Below are positions 1-4,082 of a DNA stretch of 43,710 bases, piece by piece. The stretch comes from Clostridiaceae bacterium. GTDB taxonomy: Bacteria > Bacillota > Clostridia > Oscillospirales > Acutalibacteraceae. Below the pieces are notes generated by a model. It was not told the DNA's origin and made no database searches. It saw nothing but the letters and a program-made list of their open reading frames with translations. The position numbers and the translations under genes were made by a program. The stretch lies in assembly GCA_016290665.1 (NCBI GenBank), contig JAEEUW010000008.1:1-43710 (forward strand), read 5' to 3'. Within the stretch, counting starts at the first letter, position 1. The number at the start of each line of letters is the position of its first letter.

Positions 1-1201
1 TGGTGCGCGGCGTCACCGCGCGGCGCGGGGCCGCCGTTGTTGCGGGCGCGGCCGTCGGCTTTGCGGTCGTCGGGACGGTCGTCGGAACAGTCGTCGGGAC
101 AGTCGTCGGCGCTTCGGTCGGTTCGGCGGTTGGCTCGGCAGTCGGCTCGGCAGTCGGCTCGGCAGTCGGCTCGGTCGTCGGTGCAGTCGGCTGCGGCGCT
201 TCGGGCTGCGGCTGCACGTCGGTGCAGTCGAACAGGAAGCCGCGGCCGGTTTGCAGCCGCTCATAGGCCAGCAGGGCATAACACGCCTGCTCTGTGGCCT
301 GCATGGCGGGCCGCTCGCTGTCTGCCGTGTGCACAAAGGCGCGCGCTGCGGGGCGGTAGGCGCGCAGCAGGCAGTCCACCGGCGTTACGCCGCCCTTTTG
401 CAGCGTCGGCTCCTTTGCGGGGTCGATGCCCCAGGCGCAGCAGGCAAGCACCACCTGCGCCGCGCTCTCGGTGTTCTCCGTGCCGATGGTGGAAAACCCG
501 CCGCTCTCATTCTGGGCGGCAGAAAGGAGCGCGAAGGCGCGTTCGCCCGCGGCGGCAACCGTCGGGTCGTCCCGATAGGCCGCAAGACCCTGCAGGACGA
601 TGGCGGTGATATCCACGTCGCTGCGTGCGCCCCAGATGGACCAGCCGCCGTCTTCAAACTGCGACTGCACCAGAAAGTCCACGCACTGCGTGCGGATCGT
701 CGGGTCGGCGGTCTCATAGCCGCCGCTGTTCAGCGCCAGCAGGGCATAGGCCACGGCGTTGTAGCTTTGCTTTTTGATCCAGCCGAAATCCTCATAGGGA
801 CGCAACAGATCCCAGGCCCCCACGCGGCGCGGGTCTTTGCCCAGCGCGGAGAGGGCCAGAATCGTGCGGGCGTTGTCGGTCGATTTCAGATCGTGCAGCG
901 CGCCGTCCAGGCGGGTCGTTCCGGACGCCGCTTCGTCGACCGAACGCACCAGCCGGTCGTAGTAGGCCGCAGCCTGCGGGCTGTCCGGCGTCCACAGGCC
1001 GGCGCGCGCCAGCGTGAACACCGTCCAGTCGCCGCCGATGGCGGTGTGCTCCGGCGAAGCGTTGTCCCGTGCCAGCTGTTCCAGCGCCTCGTGCAGCACG
1101 GTGAACGGGTCGGCGGGGGCCTCAGAAGCGGCAAAGGCTGCCGACGGCAGCAGCAAAAGCAAGAGTGCCGTCAGCAGCAGCGAAAAGACTTTTTGTTTCA
1201 T
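1..1201 (-). CDS. Secreted alpha/alpha-toroid (prenyltransferase/squalene-oxidase repeat) protein, C-terminus off the window
   Basis: The frame is open from an ATG at 1201 to the left edge (400 codons, no stop reached). It begins with a Sec signal peptide (MKQKVFSLLLTALLLLLL, cleavage near AFA-AS). Residues about 55-325 contain helical repeats with the QxxxGGW/F signature (QFEDGGW at 181-187, QNESGGF at 230-236), the pattern of the alpha/alpha toroid shared by squalene cyclases, prenyltransferase beta subunits and the N-terminal barrel of intrinsic factor and transcobalamin. From about residue 335 a Pro/Thr linker of PTAE and PTTV tetrapeptides follows, typical of a spacer to a cell-wall or surface anchor, which would lie outside the window. 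The ATG overlaps the stop of the upstream DUF4430 gene as ATGA (1198-1201), so the two are translationally coupled. Together with the upstream cobalamin riboswitch this suggests a corrinoid-binding surface protein; that role is inference. Confidence 0.8.
   Translation of the reverse strand, partial: MKQKVFSLLLTALLLLLLPSAAFAASEAPADPFTVLHEALEQLARDNASPEHTAIGGDWTVFTLARAGLWTPDSPQAAAYYDRLVRSVDEAASGTTRLDGALHDLKSTDNARTILALSALGKDPRRVGAWDLLRPYEDFGWIKKQSYNAVAYALLALNSGGYETADPTIRTQCVDFLVQSQFEDGGWSIWGARSDVDITAIVLQGLAAYRDDPTVAAAGERAFALLSAAQNESGGFSTIGTENTESAAQVVLACCAWGIDPAKEPTLQKGGVTPVDCLLRAYRPAARAFVHTADSERPAMQATEQACYALLAYERLQTGRGFLFDCTDVQPQPEAPQPTAPTTEPTAEPTAEPTAEPTAEPTEAPTTVPTTVPTTVPTTAKPTAAPATTAAPRRAVTPRT
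66..175. repeat. Two 12-bp minisatellites encoding the PTTV and PTAE linker
   Basis: About four units related to GTCGTCGGGACA (66-109) are followed, after a short interval, by about four units of GGCTCGGCAGTC (about 130-175). Both are in frame with the minus-strand toroid gene and encode PTTV and PTAE tetrapeptides. Length changes by slippage would preserve the frame. Confidence 0.75.
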
Positions 1202-2073
1202 CCGCGTTTAAACAGGTTTTTGAAGAAGGCCACGATGCGATCAAAGAAGTCGAGGATGCGATCCCAGACCGTGGGCGCCTTGCCCAGCGATTCGATCGTG
1301 CCGTCCACTTCGCTCTGGGTGGCGTCCAGCTTTTCAAGCACGGGCTTTGCCTTTGCCTTGGCGCGGGTGTTGCTGCTTTCGGCATAGGCGATCATGGCCT
1401 GGTCCTTGTTGGCGTGCCGGAAATAGGGATCCTTGCCGTCCCAGCCGGGATAGCCGAGGCCGCGGTTCATGTCAAAGCCTGCGTCTTCACCCTGCGCGGG
1501 GCGGGAAAGCGCGAACTGCCAGCGGATGACGTAGGTGTTGCCGTAGCGGTTGGTCAGCGAGGCGGTTTTCAGCACCAGATCGCACAGAGAAACCGCGGGG
1601 AATTCGTCGTTGACGGTGCTCATCCAGCCGGACCAGGGCTCGTAGTCGGCGGCGCCGAGATCCTTGTCGGCGTTCTTGTTGTAATTGTCGTTGGAGGGGC
1701 CGCCGTTTGCCGTGACCGCGGCGGGGAAATTGACGTTGCCGTTGTCGATGTCGGCAATCTTGTCGAGATAGCCGCCGCTTTCCCATGTGCCGTAGTTGAT
1801 CGTAACGGTCAGGCCCTTGTCGTTGAACATGGCGAGCGTGGCCATGCCGGCGGTCAGCGTGTCTTCGGTGAACGGGCCGTAGCCGTCTTTCTTGACCAGG
1901 TCGTTGATCTGGGAAACCGTATATTCCGTCGGCTCCACAAAGTAGCCTTCGCCGAGCGTGAAGCCTTCCACCGAGAGGACGACCTTCATCGGATCGTCCG
2001 CGGCAAAGACGGACAGCGGCATCGCCGTGCAGAGCAGCAGGCAGACGAGCAGAATGGATACAAAGCGTTTCAT
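1198..2073 (-). CDS. Secreted DUF4430 (transcobalamin-like C-terminal domain) protein
   Basis: 291 aa with a signal peptide (MKRFVSILLVCLLLC, cleavage near VFA-AD at 24). The core (about 30-190) matches the DUF4430/transcobalamin-like pattern: a first strand KVVLSVEGF, then SGWMSTVNDEFP (148-159) and YVIRWQFALS (181-190), i.e. the usual GSGWMY..VNG and D.I.W.Y elements. The C-terminus (about 269-291) is a Phe-rich amphipathic helix, DRILDFFDRIVAFFKNLFKR, of the type repeated on other proteins of this window. The start is supported by AAAGGAGA nine bases upstream. A cobalamin riboswitch and an attenuator precede it and the toroid gene follows with a 4-base ATGA overlap. In animal B12 carriers a toroid and this beta domain form one protein with B12 between them; here they are separate polypeptides. 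Corrinoid capture at the cell surface is the favoured role, unproven. Confidence 0.85.
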   Translation of the reverse strand: MKRFVSILLVCLLLCTAMPLSVFAADDPMKVVLSVEGFTLGEGYFVEPTEYTVSQINDLVKKDGYGPFTEDTLTAGMATLAMFNDKGLTVTINYGTWESGGYLDKIADIDNGNVNFPAAVTANGGPSNDNYNKNADKDLGAADYEPWSGWMSTVNDEFPAVSLCDLVLKTASLTNRYGNTYVIRWQFALSRPAQGEDAGFDMNRGLGYPGWDGKDPYFRHANKDQAMIAYAESSNTRAKAKAKPVLEKLDATQSEVDGTIESLGKAPTVWDRILDFFDRIVAFFKNLFKRG

Positions 2074-2105
2074 GGTTTACGTCTCCTTTGGGGAAAAATA
2101 TCAGC

Positions 2106-2155
2106 AAAAAAGCGTGTTCCGCCGCGGACAGAAGTCCGCTTCCGGTAACACGCTT
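2106..2155 (-). terminator. Intrinsic terminator in the leader of the DUF4430 gene (attenuator)
   Basis: On the minus strand AGCGTGTT (2154-2147) pairs with AACACGCT (2118-2111), followed by six T; the loop holds a second hairpin, GCGGAC-TTCT-GTCCGC. It lies between the riboswitch and the ribosome binding site at about 2082-2089, so it probably is the expression platform. Confidence 0.8.
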
Positions 2156-2178
2156 TACGCCCAAATGTGAAACCCGAA

Positions 2179-2342
2179 AGACAACGGCGGATGCCTGGCT
2201 GATGAACACAACGCCCAAAACGCCCCCGAAGGACGCTGCGGCAGTTCAAACACAGGAATGGCGGTTGCTCCGGATTCGAACCGGATCTCCTCAGCGGCCG
2301 GGGCCGCTCTTTACTCAGCGCACAACTTTTCAAACCGTGTCT
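2179..2342 (-). promoter_or_regulatory. Cobalamin (B12) riboswitch
   Basis: Read on the minus strand, the leader has the cobalamin-aptamer hallmarks in order. A closing stem P1 is formed by AGACACGG (2342-2335) and CCGTTGTCT (2187-2179). The core at about 2291-2251 reads GGAGATCCGG-TTCGAAT-CCGGAGC-AACCGCCATTCCTGTG, which parallels the E. coli btuB leader (GGGAATCCAGTGCGAATCTGG...) and the Firmicute CGCCACTGT element. AGCCAGGCATCCGCC (about 2200-2186) matches the B12 box (AGYCAGGAGACCTGCC) just before the 3' strand of P1. The T-loop-like TTCGAAT is the L4 loop, not a tRNA. It is followed by an intrinsic terminator and controls the DUF4430-toroid pair. The alignment was done by eye; a covariance search (Rfam RF00174) would settle it. 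Confidence 0.75.
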
Positions 2343-2360
2343 TCTTGATTGGTTATCTAT

Positions 2361-2389
2361 ACCTTACCATATTCCGCCGGAGAAGTCAA
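2361..2389 (-). promoter_or_regulatory. Promoter of the riboswitch transcript
   Basis: TTGACT (2389-2384), 17-base spacer, TAAGGT (2366-2361) on the minus strand, placing the start at about 2354, just upstream of the riboswitch P1. Confidence 0.5.
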
Positions 2390-2435: not shown

Positions 2436-4082
2436 TTATTTGCCGAGCTTCGATTTGATCAGGTTGATCACGCGGCGCAGGATGGGGAAGAGCGACTGAA
2501 GGAACCGGAACACCTTGCGCAGGTGCTGGTTGCCGGTCGTCGGGTCGTCCGCCGTCCAGTTCTCAACGGCTTCGTTTTCGGCGGTCATCGGCGACATGAC
2601 GCAGGTGTCGTTGTCATAGACCATGAACTGCGTATAGGGGAAGTCGTCCACCGTCAACTGGGTGTCCGCCGTGATCACGGTGCAGAGAATCTCGTTTTCC
2701 GCGTCGGTCCAGTTGGCGTGCTCCGCGCCCTTGACGAACCAGGTGTTGTCGGGGAACAGGCAGGTGGACGCGTCGACCTGCTTGTCGGGCGAGATGTATT
2801 TGCCCTTGCCTTCGGCCTCGCGCTGCGCAATGTAATCGTCGGACAGCGTGTTGTAGATCATCGAGGTCGTGGCGCCCATGGAGGCGTTCTTTACGGAAAC
2901 GAGGTTGTCGGCCACCAGCTCTCTGGATTTGCAGATGGGGATCATCTGGACGCCGTATTTTGCAACGACGCCGATCTTCATGCCGTTTGCCGTGTAGTCC
3001 GTCAGCAGTTCGTGCACACGGGAGCCGACGTTGTTGTGGTAGTCTTCGATTTTGGCGATCAGGCCGGCGTACTGCTGCCGCTTTTCGCTGCCCTCGGGGC
3101 CGAAAACGTAGAGCATCGCGTCGTCGTAATCGTCGTTGCTGACGCAGGACCAGTAGGCGGGCATGGTGAACATGGTGGACAGCGCCAGCGCGCTGGTCAC
3201 GCCCTCCACGACCTTGTCGTAAAGGTCCATTTTGACCGCAGCGGAAACCGCCGTCAGAATCTGCGCGTGCTCCAGAAAATCAACGATCTCCTTGATCAAG
3301 GGGTCGATGGAAAGGCCGTTGAGGGCTTCCATGTCCGCAATGAAACGGTTGACGGAATCGCCGTCGGTTTTGAATTTGCCGCTGATCGCTTCGCTGACCG
3401 GATCTTCGCCGTCCATCATGCCCGCGTCAAGGGCAAGGCCCGCGATGCGGCCCTTGCTGCCGTATTTGGCGAGATAGGCCAGCACAAAGTTGCTGCCGAG
3501 GCAGCGGCCGGAAAGGCCAACCTGTTCAAAACCGGTCATGGCGCAGACGCCCTCGATATAGGCGTCCAGCTCGTCGGCGACGGCCATCGGATCGCGGCGC
3601 CAGTCATACCAGAAATGATACTCCGTATAGTCATAGGCCGTTTTCCGGTTCGGCGTGGTCATGCCGCGGCGGTTGCTTTCATAGTCGGCGGCGCTGATGT
3701 CCGTGCCGTAGCGCGGGTCGCCGTTTTCATCCATGCGGATCAGGTCGGCCAGCTCGGTGATCTCCTGCTCCAGCTTGGCGTAGTATTCGTCATAGTTGCC
3801 GGAGATGACGCCGAGCACAAACGGCGTGAGCACGTTGGCGACGGATTCCTTGAGATTCTCGTTGTCCTCTTCTTCGGCGTCCGTTTCCTTAAACAGGCCG
3901 GTGATGACGTCTGTGAATTTCGGCGCTTTGGTGCCGTTTTCGTCATAGATATCGTTGCCGTCGCCGGCGAGCAGCACCACCGGCATCGGGGCGGTTCTCG
4001 TCGGGGTGAATACGGCGCCGGCGTCTGCAAAGCAGGAGCAGAGCAGCAAAGCGGTCAGAAACAGGGCGATCAGTTTTTTCAT
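2436..4082 (-). CDS. Exported LCAT-like alpha/beta hydrolase with a Cys nucleophile elbow
   Basis: 548 aa from the ATG at 4082, chosen because GAGGAG stands 8 bases upstream; an ATG at 4115 has no good site. The N-terminus is a signal peptide with a possible lipobox (LCSC, Cys17). The fold is suggested by PVVLLAGDGND (oxyanion strand), FWYDWRRDPMAVADEL at about 157-172 (the WRR segment of lecithin:cholesterol acyltransferases), the nucleophile elbow, and VKGAEHANW near the C-terminal third for the catalytic His. The elbow is GRCLG (192-196), so Cys194 stands where the family has Ser in GHSMG. The C-terminus (RFLQSLFPILRRVINLIKSK) is an amphipathic tail like those of neighbouring secreted proteins. 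A TATGAT at 4126-4121 may be its -10. Substrate is unknown; an acyl ester or lipid is plausible. Confidence 0.75.
   Translation of the reverse strand: MKKLIALFLTALLLCSCFADAGAVFTPTRTAPMPVVLLAGDGNDIYDENGTKAPKFTDVITGLFKETDAEEEDNENLKESVANVLTPFVLGVISGNYDEYYAKLEQEITELADLIRMDENGDPRYGTDISAADYESNRRGMTTPNRKTAYDYTEYHFWYDWRRDPMAVADELDAYIEGVCAMTGFEQVGLSGRCLGSNFVLAYLAKYGSKGRIAGLALDAGMMDGEDPVSEAISGKFKTDGDSVNRFIADMEALNGLSIDPLIKEIVDFLEHAQILTAVSAAVKMDLYDKVVEGVTSALALSTMFTMPAYWSCVSNDDYDDAMLYVFGPEGSEKRQQYAGLIAKIEDYHNNVGSRVHELLTDYTANGMKIGVVAKYGVQMIPICKSRELVADNLVSVKNASMGATTSMIYNTLSDDYIAQREAEGKGKYISPDKQVDASTCLFPDNTWFVKGAEHANWTDAENEILCTVITADTQLTVDDFPYTQFMVYDNDTCVMSPMTAENEAVENWTADDPTTGNQHLRKVFRFLQSLFPILRRVINLIKSKLGK

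Follow-up and report, generated by a model that had tools for sequence, protein, structure and literature searches.

A probable riboswitch-controlled operon for a surface cobalamin receptor and an ECF-CbrT-type importer, entered at its 5′ end on a Clostridiaceae contig

The stretch of DNA analysed here, referred to as the window, comprises all 43,710 nucleotides of contig JAEEUW010000008.1 of a Clostridiaceae bacterium (GenBank assembly GCA_016290665.1), labelled C69 in a genome bin that is fragmented into 156 contigs, with 85% completeness and 4% contamination. The beginning of the window very likely holds the 5′ end of a riboswitch-controlled operon that encodes a surface cobalamin receptor feeding an energy-coupling factor (ECF) importer of the CbrT type. 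On the minus strand, going downward from position 2400, a leader is followed by a terminator-like hairpin, an open reading frame (ORF) at 2073-1198 and a second ORF which starts at 1201 and runs off the contig; base 1 of the window is the true contig end, and the toroid ORF is still open there. The features of this operon head are as follows.

2163-2362, minus strand: cobalamin-riboswitch aptamer with a divergent core (held-out covariance model R1 and alignment of sibling leaders)
about 2105-2156, minus strand: intrinsic-terminator-like hairpin with a T run, the expression platform between the aptamer and the first start codon (fold and sibling stems)
1198-2073, minus strand: secreted divergent DUF4430 (SLBB, transcobalamin-beta-like) protein with C-terminal helices, termed DUFa (sub-threshold Pfam match, hhalign, AlphaFold2 model)
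1198-1201, minus strand: ATGA overlap of the DUFa stop and toroid start codons (sequence and ORF list)
2-1201, minus strand: secreted alpha/alpha-toroid protein with a Thr/Pro-rich stalk, cut by the contig edge (SQHop_cyclase_C match, identity to the L071 toroid, family alignment A2)

The window leader is a homolog of cobalamin riboswitches that pass the Rfam model RF00174. The covariance model R1 was derived from an alignment of 20 related leaders with the window left out and with the leaders of three sibling loci, L009, L071 and L072, in the training set. Against the 43.7-kb window, R1 gives a single match up to an E-value of 10, located at 2163-2362 on the minus strand with 108.2 bits and an E-value of 3e-24, which establishes homology over the whole leader; the three siblings, all of them training members, score 136-143 bits. 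The orthologous leaders also lie above the RF00174 cut-off of 31.5 bits, with 36.4 bits for L009, 34.3 bits in the L071 genome and 36.5 bits in the L072 genome, and the L009 leader is the sole RF00174 match in the assembly. The window copy itself fails this gathering score: Rfam returned no matches anywhere in the window at gathering thresholds, and a permissive scan of 2074-2440 found no cobalamin family. The first-pass annotation, made from the sequence only, had described a B12-aptamer-like leader and named an RF00174 search as the check on it, with a missing match to count against the claim. By itself that search goes against the annotation; the description of the leader nevertheless stands in the light of R1 and of the siblings, although not on Rfam alone. 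With RF00174 the leader shares the T-loop core, P1, the B12 box and a terminator platform, and it differs in scoring under the cut-off and in an altered J3/4. L009, L071 and L072 lack the peripheral blocks GCCATTGG/GAGAAGG that other relatives have, and GCCATTGG is likewise absent from the window. A reading of the leader as a tRNA, based on the T-arm-like GGTTCGAATCC before ACCGCCA, was rejected, as no tRNA was found and the motif is the conserved T-loop of the aptamer.

The attenuator proposed in the same annotation is well borne out. The hairpin between the aptamer and the start codon folds at -33.8 kcal/mol with a z-score of -6.0, none of 200 shuffled sequences folds as well, and it ends in a partly paired TTTTTT. 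The three sibling hairpins keep the same stem with largely different bases, a pattern that points to selection on structure. No promoter was matched in a simple sigma-70 scan; the blocks TTGACTT and GGTAAG are conserved in the four-way alignment of the window leader with those of the three siblings.

The changes in the aptamer are found in its core. Three positions which are invariant in all 20 training leaders are altered in the window, one in J3/4 and two in the B12 box, and the conserved J3/4 and B12-box core bases of RF00174 are not retained. First, J3/4 reads AGGAGA as compared with AGGGAA in L009, L071 and L072, its last two bases being GA in place of the AA of all 20 training relatives. 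Next, the B12 box is GCCAGGCATCCG instead of the sibling GTCAGGCACCTG, in a stretch that reads AGCCAGGCATCCGCC in the window and AGTCAGGCACCTGCC in the siblings (ATCCG versus ACCTG in L009, L071 and L072); one of these changes, T to C in AGTCAG, goes towards the Rfam consensus. Finally, the alignment can be read such that the three-pair P3 stem would be preserved in the window in the register GGA/UCC. A pattern search of 398 family genomes found the exact AGGAGA core nowhere but in the window, and AGGAAA in three others. The same AGGAGA recurs in the leader of locus L099 (7642-7835), placed before a toroid-DUF4430-ECF operon, and that leader too went unreported by RF00174, in a run with stricter filters; the window and L099 leaders together may represent a variant cobalamin aptamer.

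The core changes could also be those of a decaying riboswitch, in which the J3/4 and B12-box alterations have abolished cobalamin sensing and left the operon constitutive or silent. The loss of three otherwise invariant positions, the lack of an Rfam match even under permissive filters and the uniqueness of the exact core among the 398 genomes all favour such decay, but the remainder of the leader is preserved at 108 bits, the terminator keeps its stem although the bases differ, L099 has the same core ahead of a comparable operon, and P3 can apparently re-pair. In addition, the window coding genes are under purifying selection, with dN/dS values (nonsynonymous over synonymous divergence) against L071 of 0.184/0.658 (about 0.28) for the toroid and 0.21/0.895 (about 0.23) for DUFa. 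Decay is considered unlikely, and the operon head for B12 capture is real and probably functional.

Both encoded proteins carry signal peptides, as called by eye, and the ATGA overlap at 1198-1201 is evident in the sequence and the ORF list, in agreement with the earlier description of two coupled signal-peptide ORFs. Their assignment as DUF4430 and alpha/alpha-toroid proteins is likewise sustained. The toroid just exceeds the cut-off of SQHop_cyclase_C (26.3 versus 26.1 bits, E 4.6e-6) and shares 76% identity with the L071 toroid over 296 amino acids; the residues W35, D173, T175, E221, F265, H267 and Q281 are invariant in the 18 rows of toroid alignment A2. DUFa reaches 14.1 bits with DUF4430 (PF14478), under the curated cut-off of 23.8, and its identity comes from the profile-profile comparison with DUF4430 domains of the operons, in which hhalign relates alignment A3 (7 DUFa proteins) to alignment A5 (17 domains of the DUFb type, introduced below) with 99.2% probability and an E-value of 7e-20. 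The first row of A5, the DUFb of L009, matches PF14478 with 78.9 bits (E 4e-22).

What lies beyond the contig edge can be seen in the siblings. The full operons of L009 and L072 encode DUFa, the toroid, a DUF4430 lipoprotein (DUFb, with a lipobox called by eye), EcfT and a fused EcfA-EcfA-S protein, and L071 has the same order, DUFa-toroid-DUFb-EcfT-EcfAA, up to a contig end inside the ATPases. The L009 toroid terminates by eye in an LPxTG-like TPHTGE motif, a membrane helix and a basic tail, and the last readable residues of the window toroid, AVTPRT, align by eye with ATPHTGE of L009. The S component of L009 finds CbrT (6FNP) in the PDB with an E-value of 7e-11, the next matches being at 0.7, and a profile of 12 S components ranks 6FNP first at 1.1e-17, followed by 4hzu at 2e-5 and a riboflavin uptake protein at 7e-5; EcfT has a weak, sub-threshold match to CbiQ (19.2 bits, cut-off 25). 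A CbrT-like S component, EcfT and an EcfA pair thus occur in one operon in the siblings, and the window contig ends before these genes. The transporter that the first-pass annotation had tentatively placed beyond the left edge is accordingly encoded at that place in sibling species, and we infer that the window continues into the same operon. A second EcfT-like gene follows the S component in L118, L130, L131, L138, L139, L141, L142, L143 and L146.

L009 lies on contig C37 of the same bin as the window, and its interpretation as a paralog or duplication was rejected: along 13.6 kb its identity to L072, which belongs to a different bin, is 99.1%, and with it comes a second yidC, a gene that is single in each of three other genomes (G003, G120 and G121). 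C37 is taken as a co-binned sibling contig and was used as an ortholog only, and the bin of the window, having two yidC regions, seems to be contaminated by a sibling species.

In the study of the ECF-CbrT transporter of Lactobacillus delbrueckii (6FNP, PMC5997447), CbrT proved to be an S component for cobalamin and cobinamide. The sibling S component is closest to CbrT and is likewise accompanied by EcfT and two EcfA proteins; in contrast, the sibling operons form a dedicated module, with the S component often fused to the ATPases and encoded together with extracellular proteins, whereas in L. delbrueckii one ECF module is described as shared with other S components and the gene lies in an nrdJ-cbrS-cbrT-pduO cluster. 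The uptake of cobinamide by CbrT, the rumen and gut origin of many relatives and the altered J3/4 of the window would all agree with a receptor for a relative of cobalamin, such as cobinamide, pseudocobalamin or another cobamide, the changed aptamer core then matching a different corrinoid form. The evidence gathered here bears alike on all corrinoids, and this reading is regarded as possible but rather unlikely, the main interpretation naming cobalamin.

The association of these genes extends far beyond the siblings. GTDB contigs were scanned with the toroid alignment, and the best 80 of 166 relatives were used, corresponding to 80 loci in 79 genomes. Going by their record titles, these are mostly from Clostridia and Oscillospiraceae in gut and rumen bins, with Ruminococcus bromii, Paenibacillus, Papillibacter and Clostridium aminobutyricum among the named ones. 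RF00174 is found at E<=0.01 in 48 of 50 and 29 of 30 genomes searched (one genome being in both sets, and the set of 50 run under more stringent filtering). After mapping by coordinate and inspection of the sequences for a B12 box, an RF00174 match lies within 7 kb upstream on the strand of the toroid at 60 of the 80 loci; seven coordinate coincidences lacking a B12 box (L074, L082, L098, L108, L113 twice and L144) had been dropped, which reduced the count from 62 to 60. DUF4430 and ECF genes were counted with purpose-made hidden Markov models at the 67 loci having at least 3 kb and the 58 having at least 6.5 kb of downstream sequence, respectively. A DUF4430 domain is present within 2.5 kb downstream or fused at 60 of the 67, and EcfT, EcfAA and S are each present downstream at 48 of the 58. 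In a survey of 120 genomes of the family, which overlaps the 80-locus set and has some genomes in common with it, the 28 genomes with toroid relatives hold 23 RF00174 matches, 16 of them upstream of a toroid operon by eye as compared with about 0.03 expected by arithmetic.

The architectures of the 80 loci include 20 with split DUF4430 and toroid genes like the window, 9 DUF4430-toroid fusions, 5 DUFa-toroid fusions and 6 others, with the call for L140 taking the first of its two toroid genes. Splitting is therefore not special to the window, and fusions exist in both orders. At 37 of the 80 loci the purpose-made models show no DUF4430 domain inside the toroid gene or immediately before it (40 at first, with L120, L125 and L148 regained on recheck, where the domain is part of a large protein adjoining the toroid on its upstream side), a count in which a diverged DUF4430 could hide in long N-termini. 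Many of the DUF4430 and toroid relatives end in a type I dockerin, confirmed with Pfam in L102 (6466-7779) and L105 (6948-9026) and seen by eye in L103, L104, L108, L109, L111, L124, L127-L129, L144, L047 and L048, which would fit docking of the B12 receptor to a scaffold resembling a cellulosome or amylosome.

Human intrinsic factor and transcobalamin consist of an alpha/alpha toroid and a beta domain, with B12 held between the two. A fold similarity to these carriers is suggested by structural models. A natural toroid-FIVAR-DUF4430 stretch of 536 amino acids from L140 was modelled with AlphaFold2 from 38 alignment rows, 6 of which cover the DUF4430 part, giving a mean predicted local distance difference test score (pLDDT) of 85 and a predicted template-modelling score (pTM) of 0.69. 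Of its 651 matches in the PDB, the 15 best are all transcobalamin, intrinsic factor or haptocorrin, with E-values of 8e-9 to 9e-7 over 486-540 alignment columns, and terpene cyclases come next at 2e-4. The DUFa model (pLDDT 84) also has intrinsic factor as its best PDB match, at an E-value of 0.12 and a probability of 0.82, the other 49 matches listed all being at 0.1 or below in probability. PDB entry 3u7z, the stand-alone Ruminococcus gnavus protein RUMGNA_00854 annotated as a 'putative metal binding protein', matches a part of the fusion model with a template-modelling (TM) score of 0.75 over its own 97 residues, and may be a DUF4430 cobalamin binder.

By sequence, the toroid profiles find squalene-hopene and related cyclases and not transcobalamin, which would be expected if the toroid were enzymatic, in the manner of a terpene cyclase or lyase, with the DUF4430 proteins as surface proteins of no relation to it. 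This explanation is extremely unlikely, and a terpene-cyclase function was rejected, as the toroid, judged by eye, starts with a signal peptide and in L009 ends in an LPxTG-like motif, is naturally fused to DUF4430 in both orders, stands in a riboswitch and ECF context, and in the L140 fusion ranks by fold with B12 carriers above cyclases.

Of the two DUF4430 proteins of the operon, one is the more likely equivalent of the transcobalamin beta domain. In the family survey, five fusions have the toroid first and DUF4430 second (L051, L052, L054, L063 and L066). All five are directly followed by EcfT with no separate DUFb, and with a DUFb model their DUF4430 domains reach 118-152 bits, versus 26-48 bits with a DUFa model, the window protein at 1198-2073 scoring 13.7 bits with the former and 155.8 with the latter. 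The two types were scored with separate models; an earlier iterated DUFa model had absorbed lipoprotein-type domains and gave about equal scores. Since the five fusions carry a DUFb-type domain and have no separate DUFb, they provide a Rosetta-stone link between the toroid and DUFb, and the sequences suggest that the transcobalamin-like beta partner of the toroid is more likely DUFb, the third gene, located off the window edge, than DUFa. The toroid-then-DUF4430 fusions among the 80 loci (L120, L125, L134, L140 and L148, with L110 on the other strand) speak against the link in that they are extra proteins beside a second toroid, and a separate DUF4430 is found elsewhere in the operon in L120, L125, L134, L140 and L110, but not in L148; the link therefore rests on the five fusions of the family survey.

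Because DUFa is also fused to toroids at other loci, it probably touches the same complex, and all three proteins may form one receptor. That DUFa and the toroid alone are the two transcobalamin halves clamping B12, with the later lipoprotein as a separate relay, is judged unlikely. Such a pairing would be in line with the 9 DUF4430-toroid and 5 DUFa-toroid fusions among the 80 loci, with the ATGA coupling and with the weak intrinsic factor match of the DUFa model, but the five family-survey fusions carry the lipoprotein-type domain and leave no separate DUFb, and 37 of 80 loci show no DUF4430 inside the toroid gene or immediately before it, as compared with 60 of 67 that have a close downstream one. 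The first-pass annotation had proposed a surface corrinoid-capture system in which these two proteins are the halves that assemble around B12; the corrinoid regulation, the surface location and the kinship to the toroid and beta domain of transcobalamin uphold the capture system, whereas DUFa is probably not the half equivalent to the transcobalamin beta domain.

The computed evidence, i.e. the leader homology and terminator, the sibling operon order, the kinship of the S component with CbrT and the fold similarity of the fusion to transcobalamin and intrinsic factor, allows the following mechanism to be proposed for the cobalamin receptor operon. At low intracellular cobalamin, the leader would avoid the terminator and the operon would be transcribed, yielding secreted DUFa, the wall-anchored alpha/alpha toroid, the DUFb lipoprotein and the ECF importer composed of EcfT, EcfA-EcfA and the CbrT-like S component. 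The toroid and DUFb would clamp cobalamin between them at the cell surface like the domains of transcobalamin and intrinsic factor, the DUF4430 domain closing the site, and DUFa might serve as a second capture or relay subunit. The ligand would then be handed over to the S component and imported. The assembly has one match to a B12-binding domain, in a protein which is MetH-like by eye, and no match to CobS, in keeping with a B12 user unable to complete cobalamin, although at 85% bin completeness this is weak evidence.

Several observations weigh against this interpretation. First, the leader is below any Rfam threshold and has three invariant positions changed, so its ligand response may be weakened or altered, and the transporter genes are off the window contig, their presence being deduced from the siblings. 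Next, a mapped riboswitch is lacking at 20 of the 80 loci (some of which are cut by contig ends), a close downstream DUF4430 at 7 of 67 and ECF genes at 10 of 58; toroid relatives are found in just 28 of the 120 family genomes and are absent from the one other genome of the same genus that was searched. Finally, the top match for the DUFa model in the PDB is weak, the modelled fusion belongs to a distant relative and not to the window pair, and its matches to B12 carriers have TM scores over the query of only 0.30-0.40 with root-mean-square deviations of 10-15 Å, so that the domain arrangement and the pocket are not settled by these models. The toroid and DUF4430/DUFb profiles gave no transcobalamin match among PDB sequences, which places the kinship at the level of the fold.

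As for the surroundings, an alpha/beta-hydrolase-like ORF (about 2436-4082) with an Abhydrolase_1 match under the cut-off lies 5′ of the leader on the same strand, and ORFs named jag and yidC by eye are also located upstream of the leader on that strand. The hydrolase-like protein appears to be secreted, and its gene (window 2436-4082, minus strand) sits between jag and the riboswitch and is absent from that place in L009. Segments of this ORF share 66-89% DNA identity with many further contigs of the assembly, which suggests a multi-copy family.

The system fits the kind predicted by Burroughs et al. in 2007 (PMC1796856), whose paper describes bacterial SLBB-toroid fusions in either order, secreted and in some cases anchored, in operons with CbiO-like ATPases, CbiQ-like membrane proteins and sometimes a second SLBB protein, predicts B12 scavenging for them and proposes a transfer of the pair to animals. 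The window and its siblings share these traits and differ in that the toroid and SLBB proteins of the window are separate genes, that two SLBB proteins flank the toroid (the second seen in the siblings), and that the operon is connected with cobalamin through its cobalamin-riboswitch leader and a CbrT-like S component; the text of the 2007 paper does not use 'riboswitch' anywhere. Added here are the separate toroid and SLBB genes, the riboswitch at 60 of 80 relatives, the CbrT-like S component, the evidence on toroid-SLBB pairing and the structural ranking. Human and animal transcobalamin, intrinsic factor and haptocorrin similarly combine an alpha/alpha toroid with a DUF4430-type beta domain and are the best PDB matches of the L140 fusion; however, those carriers have both domains in one chain, a trait met with in the fused loci, whereas the window system consists of bacterial surface proteins, is split over two or three polypeptides with its toroid and beta domain in separate genes, and finds no sequence match to them in profile searches. 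BtuG and BtuH of Bacteroides, as described in PMC6143338 and PMC8941943, are also B12-binding proteins that aid B12 acquisition in gut bacteria, BtuG being surface-exposed; going by these descriptions, BtuG works with BtuB in a Gram-negative bacterium, unlike the toroid and DUF4430 proteins here, which accompany an ECF importer. No experimental study of the system was found in the literature searched, with most subscription journals and preprints lying outside that search.

The substrate-binding protein of an ECF importer is its membrane S component. To our knowledge, ECF importers normally use no extracellular binding protein. With somewhat less than even probability, the operon represents an ECF importer fed by a dedicated three-part receptor outside the cell (DUF4430, toroid and DUF4430 lipoprotein), a disassembled counterpart of animal transcobalamin under the control of a cobalamin riboswitch, where the window switch with its re-paired P3 and altered J3/4 may read a different corrinoid. 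The operon offers a concrete, cloneable system for the 2007 proposal that the animal B12 carriers derived from B12-scavenging surface proteins of Gram-positive bacteria. If true, it would be an example of an ECF transporter working with a receptor outside the cell and would reveal a possible way for gut Clostridia to obtain B12.

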